Below, piece after piece: positions 18,723-62,570 of a stretch of DNA of 64,000 nucleotides (its first letter is position 1; each line of letters begins with the position of its first letter). The translations under genes and the position numbers were made by a program. The DNA is from Granulicella cerasi (GTDB taxonomy: Bacteria > Acidobacteriota > Terriglobia > Terriglobales > Acidobacteriaceae), in the NCBI RefSeq assembly GCF_025685575.1, contig NZ_JAGSYD010000006.1:1-64000 (forward strand), written 5' to 3'. The notes below the pieces were generated by a model that did not search any database, had not been told where the DNA came from, and was given only the letters and a program-made list of their open reading frames with translations.

Positions 18723-19463
18723 ATGGCTGACATTCAAGGCAAGGTTGTAGTGATTACGGGCGCGAGCAGCGGCATTGGCGCGGTGACGGCGAAGGAGTTG
18801 GCGAAGCAGGGTGCGGTGGTCGTGCTCGGTGCGCGTCGCAAAGACCGGCTGGATGCTCTCGTGAGCGAGATCGAAGCCGCTGGTGGCAAGGCTCTGGCAG
18901 TGGCCTGCGATGTGGTGAAGCGTGCTGATCTTGAGGCGCTTGTGGCTGCGGGCGTGAAGGCGTTTGGGAAGATCGATGTGATCGTGAACAACGCAGGCAT
19001 CATGCCGCTGTCGCCGCTGAGCGAACTGCGCGTGGAGGAGTGGGAGCAGACGATCGACGTAAACGTGAAGGGCGTGCTGTATGGCATTGCCGCAGCGCTG
19101 CCGGTGTTTGAAAAGCAGGGCAGCGGGCACTTTGTGAATATCTCGTCCGTGGCGGGGATCCGCGCGTTTCCGATGGCGGCGGTGTACTGCGGCTCGAAGT
19201 GGGCTGTGGGGGCGATCACCGAGACGCTGCGGCAGGAGTGTGTGGGCAAGAACATTCGCACTACGGTGATTCTGCCGGGTGCGTTTGAGACTGAATTGGG
19301 CAATACGATCACGCACAAGGAAACTGCTGAGCAGATGGGGCACTTCATGCAGGTGGCGCAACCGCCGCAGGCGATCGCTGAGGCGATTGCATATGCGATC
19401 GGTCAGCCTGCTGGTGTGGCTGTGAACGAGCTAGTGGTTCGGCCCGCTGCGCAGTTTGTGTAG
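18723..19463 (+). CDS. SDR-family NADP-dependent oxidoreductase (YdfG-like)
   Basis: 246 aa; ATG 18723 follows TTCAAGGAGAACAGCGAATC. Classical SDR: TGASSGIGAVTAKELAK (cofactor glycine motif), NNAGIMPLSPLSEL, catalytic Ser in ISSVAGIRAFPMAAVYCGSKWAV with Y-C-G-S-K active-site pair, and PGAFETEL. The basic residue pattern GARRKDRL after beta-2 points to NADP. Family relatives such as YdfG reduce 3-hydroxy acids or malonic semialdehyde, but the substrate is not readable. Unlike the SDRs at 14217 and 54347 it has no adjacent regulator. A hairpin with T-rich tail follows at 19479. Confidence 0.92.
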   Translation: MADIQGKVVVITGASSGIGAVTAKELAKQGAVVVLGARRKDRLDALVSEIEAAGGKALAVACDVVKRADLEALVAAGVKAFGKIDVIVNNAGIMPLSPLSELRVEEWEQTIDVNVKGVLYGIAAALPVFEKQGSGHFVNISSVAGIRAFPMAAVYCGSKWAVGAITETLRQECVGKNIRTTVILPGAFETELGNTITHKETAEQMGHFMQVAQPPQAIAEAIAYAIGQPAGVAVNELVVRPAAQFV

Positions 19464-19553: not shown

Positions 19554-19590
19554 GCCCACCCGTCCGCATGAAGCCGCGTACGGATGGGGC
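19554..19590. repeat. Dispersed palindromic repeat, family A (copy 1)
   Basis: GCCCACCCGTCCGCA, short spacer, then GCGTACGGATGGGGC. The arms are inverted complements apart from a few mismatches. Two more copies occur at 28024-28059 and 62478-62512, all intergenic. It resembles REP-type mobile palindromes. Confidence 0.85.
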
Positions 19591-19615: not shown

Positions 19616-19659
19616 TTTCTGCAAACCCACATCTCAAGAATCGAGATGTGGGGCACCCG
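19616..19659. repeat. Dispersed 44-bp palindromic repeat, family B (copy 1, intergenic)
   Basis: Contains CCCACATCTC and its exact complement GAGATGTGGG around a 7-nt centre AAGAATC, flanked by TTTCTGCAAA and GCACCCG. A second copy, 41 of 44 positions identical, lies inside nadA at 52474-52517. This copy ends 12 bp from the menG stop codon and could also act as its hairpin terminator. Confidence 0.85.
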
Positions 19660-19670
19660 ATCGCGGTGGT

Positions 19671-20417
19671 CTACGCCTTGGTGCCGCGGTAAAGGCCAGC
19701 GGAGTGGAGCAGGTAGCCGTCCCAGTGGGCGTCGACGAAGCCGGCTTCGGCCATGAGGGCGAGCATCTTGGGCGGGCGCGGGAAGCGGCGCACGGAGTCG
19801 GGCAGGTACTTGTAGGCCGCGCGGTCGCCGGAGATCATGCCGCCGATGAGGGGGGCGATCTGCGAGAAGTAGAGGTTGTAGGCGAGCGCCTTGGCGCCTT
19901 CGGGCTGATTAGCTTCGAGGACGCCGATGCGGCCGCCGGGCTTAAGCACGCGGGCGATCTCGCGCAGGCCAGCGGCGTAGTCGGTGAGGTTGCGGAAGCC
20001 GAAGGCCGAGGTGACGAGATCGAATGAGTTGTCGGGGAAGGGCAGGTGCATGGCGTCGCCTTCGATCCAGTCAATCGGCTCGGTGGCGTACTTGCAGCGG
20101 GCGCGGTCGAGCATCTGTGCCGAGAAATCGAGGCCGGTGAGTCGGGCTGCATTGGCAGGGCGCGCGGCTAGTAGCGCGGAGGTCTGGTCGCCGGTGCCGC
20201 AGCAGATGTCGAGGATGCGCGCGTCGGGGTTCTTCAGTACCGGCGTGAAGGCGCGGGCGGTTTTGCGCCACCAGCGGCGGTCGAGGCCCATGCTGATGAG
20301 GTGGTTCAGCAGATCGTACTTGGGCGCGATGGAGTTGAACATCGCCTGCACGTTTTGTGCGGCTTCGGCCTGGGTGCGTTCGTTGGCGGTGCGTGCGCCA
20401 GTGGTTTCGGTAGGCAT
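19671..20417 (-). CDS. menG: Demethylmenaquinone methyltransferase (UbiE/MenG family)
   Basis: 248 aa. Transfers a methyl group from SAM to demethylmenaquinone, the last step of menaquinone synthesis. Family marks: VQAMFNSIAPKYDLLNHLISMGLDRRWWR, SAM motif I in ILDICCGTGDQT (about 68), DFSAQMLDRAR, SFDLVTSAFGFRNL and LKPGGRIGVLE. The C-terminus GMISGDRAAYKYLPDSVRRFP is the UbiE/MenG signature. Its start codon shares one base with the aroB stop (TGATG), so translation is coupled to aroB. Ubiquinone genes are not seen here; the menaquinone role is inferred from probable phylum. Confidence 0.94.
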   Translation of the reverse strand: MPTETTGARTANERTQAEAAQNVQAMFNSIAPKYDLLNHLISMGLDRRWWRKTARAFTPVLKNPDARILDICCGTGDQTSALLAARPANAARLTGLDFSAQMLDRARCKYATEPIDWIEGDAMHLPFPDNSFDLVTSAFGFRNLTDYAAGLREIARVLKPGGRIGVLEANQPEGAKALAYNLYFSQIAPLIGGMISGDRAAYKYLPDSVRRFPRPPKMLALMAEAGFVDAHWDGYLLHSAGLYRGTKA

Positions 20418-49145: not shown

Positions 49146-50009
49146 TTACGCGACGTCGAGGCCGAGATCGAGAGCGCGGACCGAGTGCGTGAGAGCGCCG
49201 ACGGAGATGATGTCCACGCCTGCGGCAGCGAGTTCGGGGATGCGTTCGAGGGTGATACCGCCCGAAGCCTCGATGAGGACGCTGGGAGCCAGTTTGCGGG
49301 CCAGCGCGGAGCCTTCGCGAAGCTGGTCGAGGCTGAAGTTGTCGAGCATGAGGGTGTTCACGACGCCGGAGGCGAGCACGGGCTCGATCTGGTCGATGCG
49401 GTCGACCTCGACCTCGATGTGCGTGGTGTGCGGCAGTGCGCGCGCGGCCTCGCGGAGGGCTTCGGTAAGCGGGCGCTGTCCATTCTGCGTGAGCACGGCG
49501 AGGTGGTTGTCCTTGAGCATGACGGCGTCGGAGAGCGAGAAGCGGTGGTTGTGGCCGCCGCCGCAGCGCACGGCGTAACGCTCGAGCTGGCGCAGGCCGG
49601 GCGTCGTCTTGCGGGTATCGGTAATGCGGGTCGAGGTGCCTGCCGTCGCGGCGACGTACTTCGCGGTCTGCGTGGCGATGCCGGAGAGGCGCTGCGCGAA
49701 GTTGAGGGCGACGCGCTCAGCCTGCAGGATGGCGCGTGCGGGGCCCTCGACGGTTGCGAGAACGGTGCCCTTGGTGAAGTGCTCGCCGTCGTGGACACGG
49801 AAGATGGTGGTGATGGCGCCCGAGGTGAGGTCCATCGCGGTCGCGAAGAGGGCTTCGCCGCAGAGCACGCCGTCTTCGCGGGCGGTGAGCTGCGCGGTCA
49901 TCGTGGCGTCGGCGGGGACGAAGGTCTGCGCGCTCAGGTCGCCCCAGGGGGCGTCTTCAGCGAGGGCGGCGGCGACGAGGGATTCGACGAGAGCGGAGGC
50001 GGGCTTCAT
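49146..50009 (-). CDS. nadC: Nicotinate-nucleotide pyrophosphorylase (carboxylating)
   Basis: 287 aa. Converts quinolinate and PRPP to nicotinate mononucleotide, the third step of de novo NAD synthesis. Motifs: EDAPWGDLSAQTFVPADA (N-terminal swapped domain), LNFAQRLSGIATQTAKYV, TRITDTRKTTPGLRQLERYAVRCGGGHNHRFSLSDAVMLKDNHL, EVEVDRIDQIEPVL and ASGGITLERIPELAAAGVDIISVGALTHS. All the quinolinate-contact Arg and Lys positions in the T-R-K-T and H-N-H-R segments are present. Last of nadA-nadB-nadC; a 110-bp repeat-bearing spacer separates it from nadB. Confidence 0.96.
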   Translation of the reverse strand: MKPASALVESLVAAALAEDAPWGDLSAQTFVPADATMTAQLTAREDGVLCGEALFATAMDLTSGAITTIFRVHDGEHFTKGTVLATVEGPARAILQAERVALNFAQRLSGIATQTAKYVAATAGTSTRITDTRKTTPGLRQLERYAVRCGGGHNHRFSLSDAVMLKDNHLAVLTQNGQRPLTEALREAARALPHTTHIEVEVDRIDQIEPVLASGVVNTLMLDNFSLDQLREGSALARKLAPSVLIEASGGITLERIPELAAAGVDIISVGALTHSVRALDLGLDVA

Positions 50010-50108: not shown

Positions 50109-50146
50109 CAAACCCTCTCCTAGCGCGTGGCGAAGAGAGGGTTTGC
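50108..50146 (-). promoter_or_regulatory. Stem-loop spanning the nadB stop codon
   Basis: GCAAACCCTCTC (50108-50119) pairs perfectly with GAGAGGGTTTGC (50135-50146); the 15-nt loop holds the nadB stop codon. There is no U-tract, so it may be an mRNA processing or stability element or a weak attenuator before nadC rather than a full terminator. Confidence 0.5.
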
Positions 50147-51739
50147 GGGGATGCGGACTGGTGTGGAGCGGTCGGCGTAAACCAGCGAGCGCGCCCATGC
50201 AGGGTTGGGGTTCGGGAAGTCGTTGCGGAAGTGGCCCCCGCGGCTTTCGGTGCGGGCGAGCGCGGCCGTGGTGACGAGGCGCGCGAGCAGGTGCAGGTTC
50301 GCGGTCTCGCGGTCGGCGATGCTGCGGACTTCAACGCGTGTGGACTTCAGCTCCGCAAGCGCGGTGGTGAGGTCTTCGGCGTTGCGCTCGATACCTGCGG
50401 CGTTCCACATGAGCGACTGGATGCCACGGCGGTCGATCGTACGCTCTGCGGCGTAGGGCGGAGCCAGCGCACGGACTTCGTTGGCGTCGAACTCGGCGGG
50501 GGCGTCGAGAGAGGCGCTAGGCGCGATGTGTTCGCCGAGGAAGAGGCCGGCGCAACGCCAGGCGTAGACGAGGCTTTCGAGCAGCGAGTTCGAGGCGAGG
50601 CGATTGGCTCCGTGAACGCCGGTGCAGGCGGTTTCACCTACGGCGAAGAGCCGTGGCACAGAGGTTCGGCCGTACAGATCGGTGCGTACGCCACCCATCC
50701 AGTAGTGCGCGGCGGGGGTGACGGGGATCGGCTCGCGCGACCAGTCCATGCCGCGACGGCGCACGGCGGCGTCGATGGAGGGGAAGCGCGTGCGGAGGAA
50801 CTCCTCGACTTCGGGCTGCGACGAACCGCCGAGGCGCGTGGCGTCGAGCATCACGGGTGCGCCGTTCTGCGCGGCCATCTGCATAGCGATGCCGCGAGCG
50901 ACGATGTCGCGCGGGGCGAGCTCGGCGCCCGGGTGGACGGCCTGCATGAAGCGGCGACCATGTGCGTCGAGCAGCACGGCACCTTCGCCGCGCACGGCTT
51001 CGGAGATGAGGAAGGTGTCGGCGTGCGCGAGCGCGGTCGGGTGGAACTGGTAGAACTCGACGTCGGCGACCTCGGCTCCAGCGCGGAAGGCCGCTGCGGT
51101 GCCGTCGCCCGTGGCGACCGAGGGGTTCGTGGTGTGGAGGTAGAGCTGTCCGGCGCCGCCAGAGGCGAGAATCACCGCGTCCGAGGTGAACATGCGTGAG
51201 CGCTCTTGTTTCCCGTTTTGGGGGCGGTCGATGAGGTGCAGGCCGATGCACTGGTCGTTACGTGTGAGGATGTCGGCGACGAAGGTGTGCTCGAGCACGG
51301 TGATCGCCTTGTTCGAGCACACCGCGTGGACGAGCGCCATCTCGATGGAGAGGCCGGTGGAGTCGCCGCCTGCGTGTAGCACGCGCGGGTAAGAGTGCGC
51401 GGCTTCGAGGCCCTTAGCGAGTTCGCCGTTGCGCTTGTCGAACTGCACACCGAAGCGGATGAGGTCCTGAATTCGCTCCGGGCCTTCTTCGCAGAGGACG
51501 CGAACGGCAGCTGGATCGCAGAGGCCTGCGCCTGCGTTGAGCGTGTCGATGATGTGGTTCTCGACGTTGTCGTCTTCGAACATGACGGCAGCGATGCCGC
51601 CCTGCGCCCAGCGTGTGTTGGACTCGGCGAGCTCGTTCTTGGTGACGAGCGTGACATCGTGCTGCTTGGACAAGCGCAGTGCGGCGATGAGGCCCGCGAT
51701 GCCGCTTCCTACCACCGCTACGTGAAGGCGTTGGCTCAT
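50120..51739 (-). CDS. nadB: L-aspartate oxidase
   Basis: 539 aa. FAD enzyme that oxidises L-aspartate to iminoaspartate, the first step of de novo NAD synthesis. N-terminal dinucleotide motif VAVVGSGIAGLIAALRLS, then ESNTRWAQGGIAAVMFEDDNVENHIIDTLNAGAGL, the substrate region HSYPRVLHAGGDSTGLSIEMALV, ILASGGAGQLYLHTTNPSVATGDGTAAAFRAGAEVADVEFYQFHPTAL, RGEGAVLLDAHGRRFM and TAAHYWMGGVRTDLYGRTSVPRLFAVGETACTGVHGANRLASNSLLESLVYAWR. All are typical. Overlaps nadA by 4 bp (ATGA), so coupled translation is likely with the quinolinate synthase that consumes its unstable product. Confidence 0.97.
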   Translation of the reverse strand: MSQRLHVAVVGSGIAGLIAALRLSKQHDVTLVTKNELAESNTRWAQGGIAAVMFEDDNVENHIIDTLNAGAGLCDPAAVRVLCEEGPERIQDLIRFGVQFDKRNGELAKGLEAAHSYPRVLHAGGDSTGLSIEMALVHAVCSNKAITVLEHTFVADILTRNDQCIGLHLIDRPQNGKQERSRMFTSDAVILASGGAGQLYLHTTNPSVATGDGTAAAFRAGAEVADVEFYQFHPTALAHADTFLISEAVRGEGAVLLDAHGRRFMQAVHPGAELAPRDIVARGIAMQMAAQNGAPVMLDATRLGGSSQPEVEEFLRTRFPSIDAAVRRRGMDWSREPIPVTPAAHYWMGGVRTDLYGRTSVPRLFAVGETACTGVHGANRLASNSLLESLVYAWRCAGLFLGEHIAPSASLDAPAEFDANEVRALAPPYAAERTIDRRGIQSLMWNAAGIERNAEDLTTALAELKSTRVEVRSIADRETANLHLLARLVTTAALARTESRGGHFRNDFPNPNPAWARSLVYADRSTPVRIPANPLFATR

Positions 51740-53061
51740 GCTGCGCTCACAGGCTTTCCGGGGGCGAGGGCCAACATGCGTTCGAGCGCGATGCGCGCGT
51801 CGCTGGTGGTGGCTTCGTCAACCGTGATGCGGTTGAGGACTTCGCCGCGCTCGAAGGCTTCGAGCACCCACGCGAGATAGCTGGGGTGGATGCGGTACAT
51901 CGTCGAGCAGGGGCAGACGATGGAGTCGAGGCAGAAGATCGTCTTGTCCGGGTGGTCGTTCGCGAGGCGCTGCACGAGGTTGATCTCGGTGCCGATGGCG
52001 AAGATGCTGCCTGCGGGCGCGGCTTCGATGGCCTTGCGGATGTAGTCGGTGGAGCCGTTTTCGTCAGAGGCTTCGACGACCTCGAGCGTGCACTCGGGGT
52101 GCACGATGACTCGCACACCGGGATGGCGCTGGCGGGCCATGGCGATCTGCTCGACGGAGAAGCGTTTGTGTACGGAGCAGAAGCCGTGCCAGAGGATGAC
52201 CTTACTGTCACGAAGAGCCTGCTCGGTGTTGCCGCCGAGGTCCACTTCGGGCTTCCAGAGCGGCATCTGATCGAGCGAGATGCCCATGGCCTTGGCGGTA
52301 TTGCGGCCGAGGTGTTGATCGGGGAAGAAGAGCACGCGCTGGCCGCGGGCGAAGGCCCACTCCAGCACGGAGCGCGCGTTCGACGAGGTGCAGACCACGC
52401 CGCCGTGGCGTCCGCAGAAGGCCTTGAGCGCGGCCGAGGAGTTCATGTAGGTGACGGGGATGACCGGCTGGAGTTTCTGCGAACCCACATCTCCAGAATC
52501 GAGATGTGGGGTACCCGGATCCGAGGCGAACAACGCGGTCAGCTCTTCCCAGCAATCTTCGACGGCGTCGAGGTCGGCCATGTCGGCCATCGAGCAGCCT
52601 GCGGCGAGGTTCGGCAGGATGACGGCCTGGTTCGGCCCGGAGAGCATGTCGGCGGTTTCTGCCATGAAGTGGACGCCGCAGAAGACGATGGCTTCGGCAT
52701 TCGGCGTCTTCTTGGTGGCCTGCGCGAGCTGAAAGCTGTCGCCCACGAAGTCGGCATACTTCACGACTTCATCGCGCTGATAAAAATGGCCGAGGATGAC
52801 GAGACGCTCGCCGAGCGCGGCCTTGGCGGCGCGGATGCGGAGGTCGAGCTCTTCGCGCGAGGCCTGACGATACTCTGCGGGAAGAACGCCTTGCCTGGGC
52901 GCATCCGACGGGAGCGGATCGTCGATAGAAGCGCCGGGACCGTAGCTGTGGTCGGCGTCGTGCAGCCAGGGGTTGTCGTCGAGGGCTGCGGAACAAGTGC
53001 TGCCGGCTCCTGCCTGTTCACCAATCTGAATCAGGTGGATCGTTTCTGGTACTGAAGGCAC
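51736..53061 (-). CDS. nadA: Quinolinate synthase with an inserted repeat-derived peptide
   Basis: 441 aa. [4Fe-4S] enzyme condensing iminoaspartate with dihydroxyacetone phosphate to quinolinate. Cluster cysteines visible: C156 in NLAAGCSMADMA, C224 in GGVVCTSSNA and one in CLDSIVCPCSTMYR (about 383). Other marks: LGHFYQRDEVVKYADFVGDSFQLAQ, IVFCGVHFMAETADML, IPVTYMNSSAALKAFCGRHGG, FFPDQHLGRNTA, HPEC. Between CWEELTALFA and PVIPVTYMNSS there are about 18 extra residues (SDPGTPHLDSGDVGSQKLQ). Their DNA is a copy of the 44-bp repeat at 19616, still in frame. An N-terminal extension of about 60 residues precedes the core. First gene of the operon. Confidence 0.96.
   Translation of the reverse strand: MPSVPETIHLIQIGEQAGAGSTCSAALDDNPWLHDADHSYGPGASIDDPLPSDAPRQGVLPAEYRQASREELDLRIRAAKAALGERLVILGHFYQRDEVVKYADFVGDSFQLAQATKKTPNAEAIVFCGVHFMAETADMLSGPNQAVILPNLAAGCSMADMADLDAVEDCWEELTALFASDPGTPHLDSGDVGSQKLQPVIPVTYMNSSAALKAFCGRHGGVVCTSSNARSVLEWAFARGQRVLFFPDQHLGRNTAKAMGISLDQMPLWKPEVDLGGNTEQALRDSKVILWHGFCSVHKRFSVEQIAMARQRHPGVRVIVHPECTLEVVEASDENGSTDYIRKAIEAAPAGSIFAIGTEINLVQRLANDHPDKTIFCLDSIVCPCSTMYRIHPSYLAWVLEAFERGEVLNRITVDEATTSDARIALERMLALAPGKPVSAA
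52474..52517. repeat. Dispersed 44-bp palindromic repeat, family B (copy 2, inside nadA)
   Basis: 41 of 44 positions identical to 19616-19659, including CCCACATCTC and its complement GAGATGTGGG around CAGAATC. It encodes roughly residues 182-196 of NadA in frame. The reading frame is open through the whole element. Confidence 0.88.
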
Positions 53062-62403: not shown

Positions 62404-62477
62404 TTGTAGAACTCCTGAATGAATGTGTACTTGGGTATTAGACCACTTGCTGCCGGTGCTGTGCGGGCGGGAGTGCT

Positions 62478-62512
62478 GCCCACCCGTCCGCAAGTGCGCG
62501 TCCGGATGGGGC
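62478..62512. repeat. Dispersed palindromic repeat, family A (copy 3)
   Basis: GCCCACCCGTCCGCA, spacer, GCGTCCGGATGGGGC. The right arm has C where copies 1 and 2 have A, and this restores more of the pairing. Followed by the heptamer array 59 bp later, as for copy 2. Confidence 0.85.
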
Positions 62513-62570
62513 ACCCGAGAGGGTTGGGTAAGGTCGCCGCTGTAAGACCTTGTGTGATCGCCGTGTTTGC

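Follow-up and report, generated by a model that had tools for sequence, protein, structure and literature searches.

A REP element linked to a RAYT transposase has very probably entered the quinolinate synthase gene nadA of Granulicella cerasi since this lineage diverged from the closest relatives sequenced, and survives there as an in-frame protein loop. REP elements are hairpin repeats that are normally intergenic and tied to a domesticated transposase, and this locus, with clear empty sites in relatives, illustrates the conversion of selfish DNA into protein within an enzyme that is probably essential. Relative to a preliminary description of the window (the whole 64,000-nt stretch of G. 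cerasi DNA analysed here), the RAYT link, the absence of an in-frame stop from the nadA copy, and the genic copies in clpB and in related genomes are new.

A REP element in frame within nadA

The nadA gene is followed by nadB-like and nadC-like ORFs, and a second copy of its repeat lies elsewhere in the window, between two convergent ORFs:

51736..53061, minus strand: nadA, quinolinate synthase of the long type, 441 aa, stop-free throughout (PF02445, E 6e-100; NF006884, 760 bits vs a cut-off of 691)
50120..51739, minus strand: nadB-like ORF, L-aspartate oxidase, named by sequence reading rather than family search
49146..50009, minus strand: nadC-like ORF, nicotinate-nucleotide pyrophosphorylase, named in the same way
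52475..52517, minus strand: in-frame REP element of 43 nt within nadA, encoding residues 182-196 (BLAST and covariance model)
52484..52510, minus strand: perfect 10-bp stem with the 7-nt loop GATTCTG, within the nadA element
19617..19659, minus strand: intergenic copy of the nadA REP
18723-19463, plus strand: SDR-like ORF (named by reading), flanking the intergenic copy
19671-20417, minus strand: UbiE/MenG-like ORF (named by reading), flanking the intergenic copy
19555..19588, minus strand: copy of a second REP family, adjoining the intergenic copy and identical here to the repeat beside the contig-5 RAYT

BLAST and the coordinates bear out the preliminary description of a palindromic repeat lying in frame inside nadA, 41/44 identical to an intergenic copy and encoding about 15 residues (182-196): against the host genome, the nadA copy aligns with the intergenic copy (19616-19659) over 44 bases at 93% identity. 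Both window copies retain the perfect 10-bp stem, and the nadA copy is a singlet, not paired with an inverted copy. Its head reads GGGTACCCCA on the nadA sense strand, the head of the family being GGGTGCCCCA. The hairpin pattern occurs twice in the window vs never in 100 shuffles, and a covariance model run on the window without filters returned the same two copies (E 7e-15 and 2e-13), with the next distinct site at E 0.046. One more hairpin with the GGGTGCCCCA head, assigned by eye to the second REP family, lies just upstream of a fabG-like ORF (62474-62517, minus strand) and is a weak match to the model (E 0.046).

With its RNA stem intact and a 64-nt fold of -22.6 kcal/mol, the nadA hairpin could regulate at the RNA level, for instance by slowing or attenuating translation of the nad transcript. 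We consider such a role very unlikely and rejected it on the ordinary fold score (z -1.17, with 23/200 shuffles folding as well); moreover, the stem arrives with the repeat itself, and the relatives read all lack it. A known RNA family was likewise rejected, as Rfam at gathering thresholds recovered only tRNA in the window.

An abundant repeat family associated with a RAYT

The nadA element is a REP element by copy number, structure, arrangement, and transposase linkage. A perfect-stem pattern was found at 13 places in the 4.08-Mb host genome and one allowing stem variants at 87, with none in a reversed control, while the covariance model gave at least 149 matches at E<=1 and at least 144 at E<=0.01, in at least 148 distinct places (the best 150 candidates were scored in whole-genome model searches). 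The possibility that the repeat occurs nowhere else in the genome thus falls away. At 42-44 nt with a 10-bp stem, the copies have a size suited to a REP, slightly above the 20-40 bp palindrome range. In 22 chosen copies, pairing holds in 98.2% of stem cells, with both-sided changes at three pairs. Their covariation score (0.223) was reached by 0/500 shuffles, although two of five covariation measures were unexceptional: the number of pairs with both-sided changes was equalled in 45/500 shuffles, and the number of pair types in 216/500. Among the best 150 candidates, 44 pairs of neighbouring matches lie less than 400 bp apart, 33 of them inverted with heads outward (one being a single palindrome matched on both strands), and 31 of these 33 are spaced 63-143 bp. 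This paired, inverted organization is that of REPIN/BIME elements, including the head-out layout described for REPINs. Contig 1, which makes up 1.30 of the 4.08 Mb, holds at least 101 of the 149 host matches, with 61 between 190 and 535 kb. Across a sample of the family, the strict pattern was detected in 59/150 genomes and 35/79 genera.

Four Y1_Tnp genes were found in the host. One of them, a 168-aa RAYT on contig 1 located after an infC-like ORF (NF047646 REP_Tyr_transpos, 109 bits vs a cut-off of 80), sits between inverted copies of the nadA repeat family, a context which suggests that this RAYT moved the repeat. The contig-5 gene adjoins a different hairpin with the same GGGTGCCCCA head, and no such repeat was found within the loci of the other two. 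In 30 RAYT loci from the genus (about 3 kb each), the exact GGGTGCCCCA repeat was present in 19, only a one-base head variant in 3, and neither in 8. In one of the RAYT loci (L174:1337-1431), two tandem partial REP copies about 31 bp apart precede the complete copy located ahead of the RAYT gene. In place of a GTAG or CGTC tag, the nadA family and other hairpins near RAYTs of the genus have the head GGGTGCCCCA; the nadA family was therefore not filed with either type, and we infer that this head may play the part that GTAG has elsewhere. The family thereby provides RAYT/REP pairs with different hairpin cores, useful for understanding how RAYTs recognize their repeats.

Empty sites in relatives

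Rather than being conserved in NadA of distant phyla, the insert is absent from all 121 other NadA loci with a readable loop, including the two nearest NadA genes (genomes G021 and G022). These loci derive from 128, after setting aside the host gene and six with an unreadable loop (L062-L066, L068); they were drawn from part of the NadA matches listed, and some genes are counted twice. At the DNA level, the same nadA stretch measures 159 nt in the host vs 129 nt in 10/10 chosen relatives, a difference of +30 nt in which about 42 nt in the host stand in place of about 12 nt. The nadA event was therefore not a clean 43-bp insertion: with about 12 nt of the relatives' loop missing, a replacement or later indels are needed. 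The preliminary view that known NadA proteins have only a short loop here holds for distant NadAs such as those of Firmicutes; in the clade's long type, the loop already has about 10 residues, and the net gain is 10 rather than 15.

One alternative is a native NadA loop whose likeness to the repeat is coincidental or convergent; in its favor, the loop of this NadA type is already variable in length at this very place. The 41/44 identity to an intergenic copy and the perfect 10-bp stem, unmatched in 100 shuffles, speak against it, and we rejected it on the empty sites in the nearest relatives as extremely improbable. Combined with the abundance of the repeat in the genome, these sites uphold the earlier proposal that the peptide derives from an inserted repeat.

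A route independent of the RAYT, such as template switching, repair at microhomologies, or gene conversion among repeat copies, could have brought the element in, and both the net change of +30 rather than +43 and the junction CCGGATGCC of relative G023 (L048), close to the element's CGGGTGCC, are compatible with such a route. We see this as a real but lesser possibility, given that in the host genome a RAYT is flanked by inverted copies of this family. Neither pattern nor model searches found a copy of the repeat in the genomes of G021 (84% complete) and G022; G021 gave no RAYT match, and that of G022 adjoins a different REP family. In the preferred scenario, the 43-bp REP would be a non-autonomous hairpin, presumably spread by the RAYT (TnpA-REP) of the same genome, a copy of which would have entered nadA after the split from the nearest sequenced relatives and replaced about 12 nt of an already variable loop. 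The insert would then have survived because it is in frame, stop-free, and probably disordered.

Avoidance of an in-frame stop

Among the seven copies that have this stem core and this length, the nadA copy included, six carry a T in place of the last loop G of the nadA copy, giving an in-frame TGA; the nadA copy is the exception. More generally, 27/35 host copies of 43 nt contain a stop in the nadA frame, so that most of them, copied unchanged, would have cut NadA short. The stop-free loop would have arisen before or with the nadA insertion, and since three other 43-nt matches also show GG at this place in the loop (one out of register), the donor copy may already have carried the stop-avoiding G.

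Predicted effect on NadA

A genome search returned a single NadA match in the host, and all cysteines invariant in 33 NadA sequences are kept in it. An AlphaFold2 model built on an alignment of these 33 sequences (mean pLDDT 84.0, pTM 0.84) places residues 186-194 below pLDDT 50 and without structure, between a helix (164-178) and a strand (198-205). Low pLDDT is expected here, as the other rows of the alignment do not cover the insert, and values below 50 also extend over most of the first 52 residues. Taken together, the single nadA found, the nadB- and nadC-like ORFs after it, the invariant cysteines, and the loop predicted to be unstructured make it plausible that the insert is tolerated, and the model is compatible with a harmless loop.

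Genic copies in the host and related genomes

Copies in coding frame were identified with a dicodon model using stricter thresholds, which replaced a first test that separated right from wrong frames poorly; the resulting genic counts are lower bounds. Across the host genome, only 2/149 copies among the best 150 candidates are in coding frame, namely those in nadA and in the gene for ClpB (the same count in three versions of the test), vs 1039/2000 random positions in the same loci. The extragenic preference of REP elements is thus evident in the host, and weaker in relatives, where 27/130 copies are coding in four further genomes: 4/43 in G001 (random positions, 980/2000), 8/30 in G010 (876/2000), 13/43 in G011 (986/2000), and 2/14 in G023 (482/2000). 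The G001 set comes from regions around its 37 strict pattern matches and not from a whole-genome model search. Looser thresholds gave 14/30 for G010, 21/43 for G011, and 2/14 for G023. As random positions in the same loci of all these genomes pass the test at 24-52%, the host strongly avoids genes, and G010 and G011 do so much less.

The covariance model supports 24/29 genic copies at E <1e-4 (G001 values coming from a 79-kb search), the five weaker ones being L351, L362, L385, L410, and the host ClpB copy. A Pfam domain was detected in 23/25 genic-copy ORFs scanned. Genic hosts include, by Pfam, an amino-acid permease, FtsQ, a nickel insertion protein, RecO, and LigD, and, by domain content, AlaRS, ProRS, PheRS beta, SecA, UvrD, MutL, TsaD, UroD, EutC, ClpB, and Ham1. 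In some ORFs the REP is within the domain match, in others between or beyond domains. In 5/5 proteins tried (UroD, TsaD, Ham1, EutC, and AlaRS), the best alignment to solved structures has a gap or break where the REP peptide lies; in the second UroD alignment, the peptide is aligned ungapped, with gaps on either side. Related genomes with this repeat type in many housekeeping genes make tolerance, frame choice, and site choice measurable.

In the host ClpB, the copy is located in the linker ahead of the second ATPase domain, a linker 10 residues shorter in G021 and G022. It scores weakly (E 0.0015) and can be read as the subtype that flanks the RAYT, one of its arms being altered. REP-headed sequence also occurs in the same linker in three other species of the genus, G001, G006 (twice), and G023, in both orientations and with more than one hairpin type. 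Overall, ClpB linkers were read in 25 genomes (leaving aside G012, G015, and G020, whose linker the pattern did not read): 4 have a REP head, 14 the short 58-59-aa form, and the remaining 7 are 65-100 aa long without a recognized head, indicating that this linker also grows by other means.

Comparison with known intragenic repeats

Palindromic repeats surviving in coding DNA had been described as rarely documented outside Rickettsia; this does not stand, as the main text of PMC3733652 (2013) reports REPs inside genes of several non-rickettsial bacteria, including O. terrae, Thauera, Thioalkalivibrio, X. oryzae, and S. maltophilia. In that text, the intragenic REPs are of the GTAG and CGTC types, the former linked to RAYTs; most copies are intergenic, and repair, replication, and tRNA-synthetase genes are prominent among the hosts, which include UvrA, UvrD/Rep helicase, and RecBCD. 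UvrD and tRNA synthetases recur among the genic hosts found here, whereas the nadA family has the head GGGTGCCCCA in place of those tags. The same main text covers acidobacterial TIRYT transposases, one of them from G. mallensis, as well as a single repeated TIR family in K. versatilis, and does not contain the words nadA and quinolinate. Elsewhere, Granulicella aggregans appears in a table row of PMC12306157, and a passage of PMC6006769 places one TnpA-Y1 protein class partly in Acidobacteria.

Dispersed hairpins, inverted pairs, and a tyrosine transposase beside the hairpins are shared with the RAYT/REP/REPIN systems as presented in parts of PMC2817692 and PMC3116915, although the classical systems carry the GTAG tetranucleotide, which the nadA family lacks. 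Rickettsia palindromic elements, some features of which are quoted in PMC3733652, are also palindromes read as peptide insertions in proteins. Unlike them, the element described here is 43 nt long, belongs to free-living relatives, and is accompanied by a RAYT; the likeness drawn here is one of working. A literature search covering main article texts found no published description of a GGGTGCCCCA-headed family inside genes or of its coding share. Hence, intragenic REPs are known as a kind, and what is new, within that search, is the GGGTGCCCCA-headed family, of which a large part is coding in some genomes.

Reading frame of the genic copies

A single frame, the GAP frame (GAPHLDSEMW type), is used by 19/29 genic copies (18 computed, and L369:1001 by inspection), with P ~1e-7 if five open frames were equally used, a value to be read with the copies being non-independent and the frame singled out after the data were seen. 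When translated, consensus hairpins are stop-free in five of six frames. Together with the entry into a probably essential enzyme and the repeated insertion into the ClpB linker, these open frames and the GAP-frame bias could mean that the sequence of the element is shaped by coding compatibility. It is conceivable, though we lean against this whole reading, that the RAYT/REP system is a recurrent source of new protein loops in Granulicella-like Acidobacteriota.

Distribution of the long NadA type

Outside Acidobacteriota, relatives of the long-type NadA are mainly actinobacterial, at about 65-71% identity, and many other genomes of the family have a NadA type at 50-58%. Judging from these identities, the long type of the genus may possibly have been acquired by horizontal transfer. 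Finally, one record labelled Vibrio cholerae strain 35D (L111) encodes a NadA close to those of Arthrobacter, and is probably mislabelled or contaminated.
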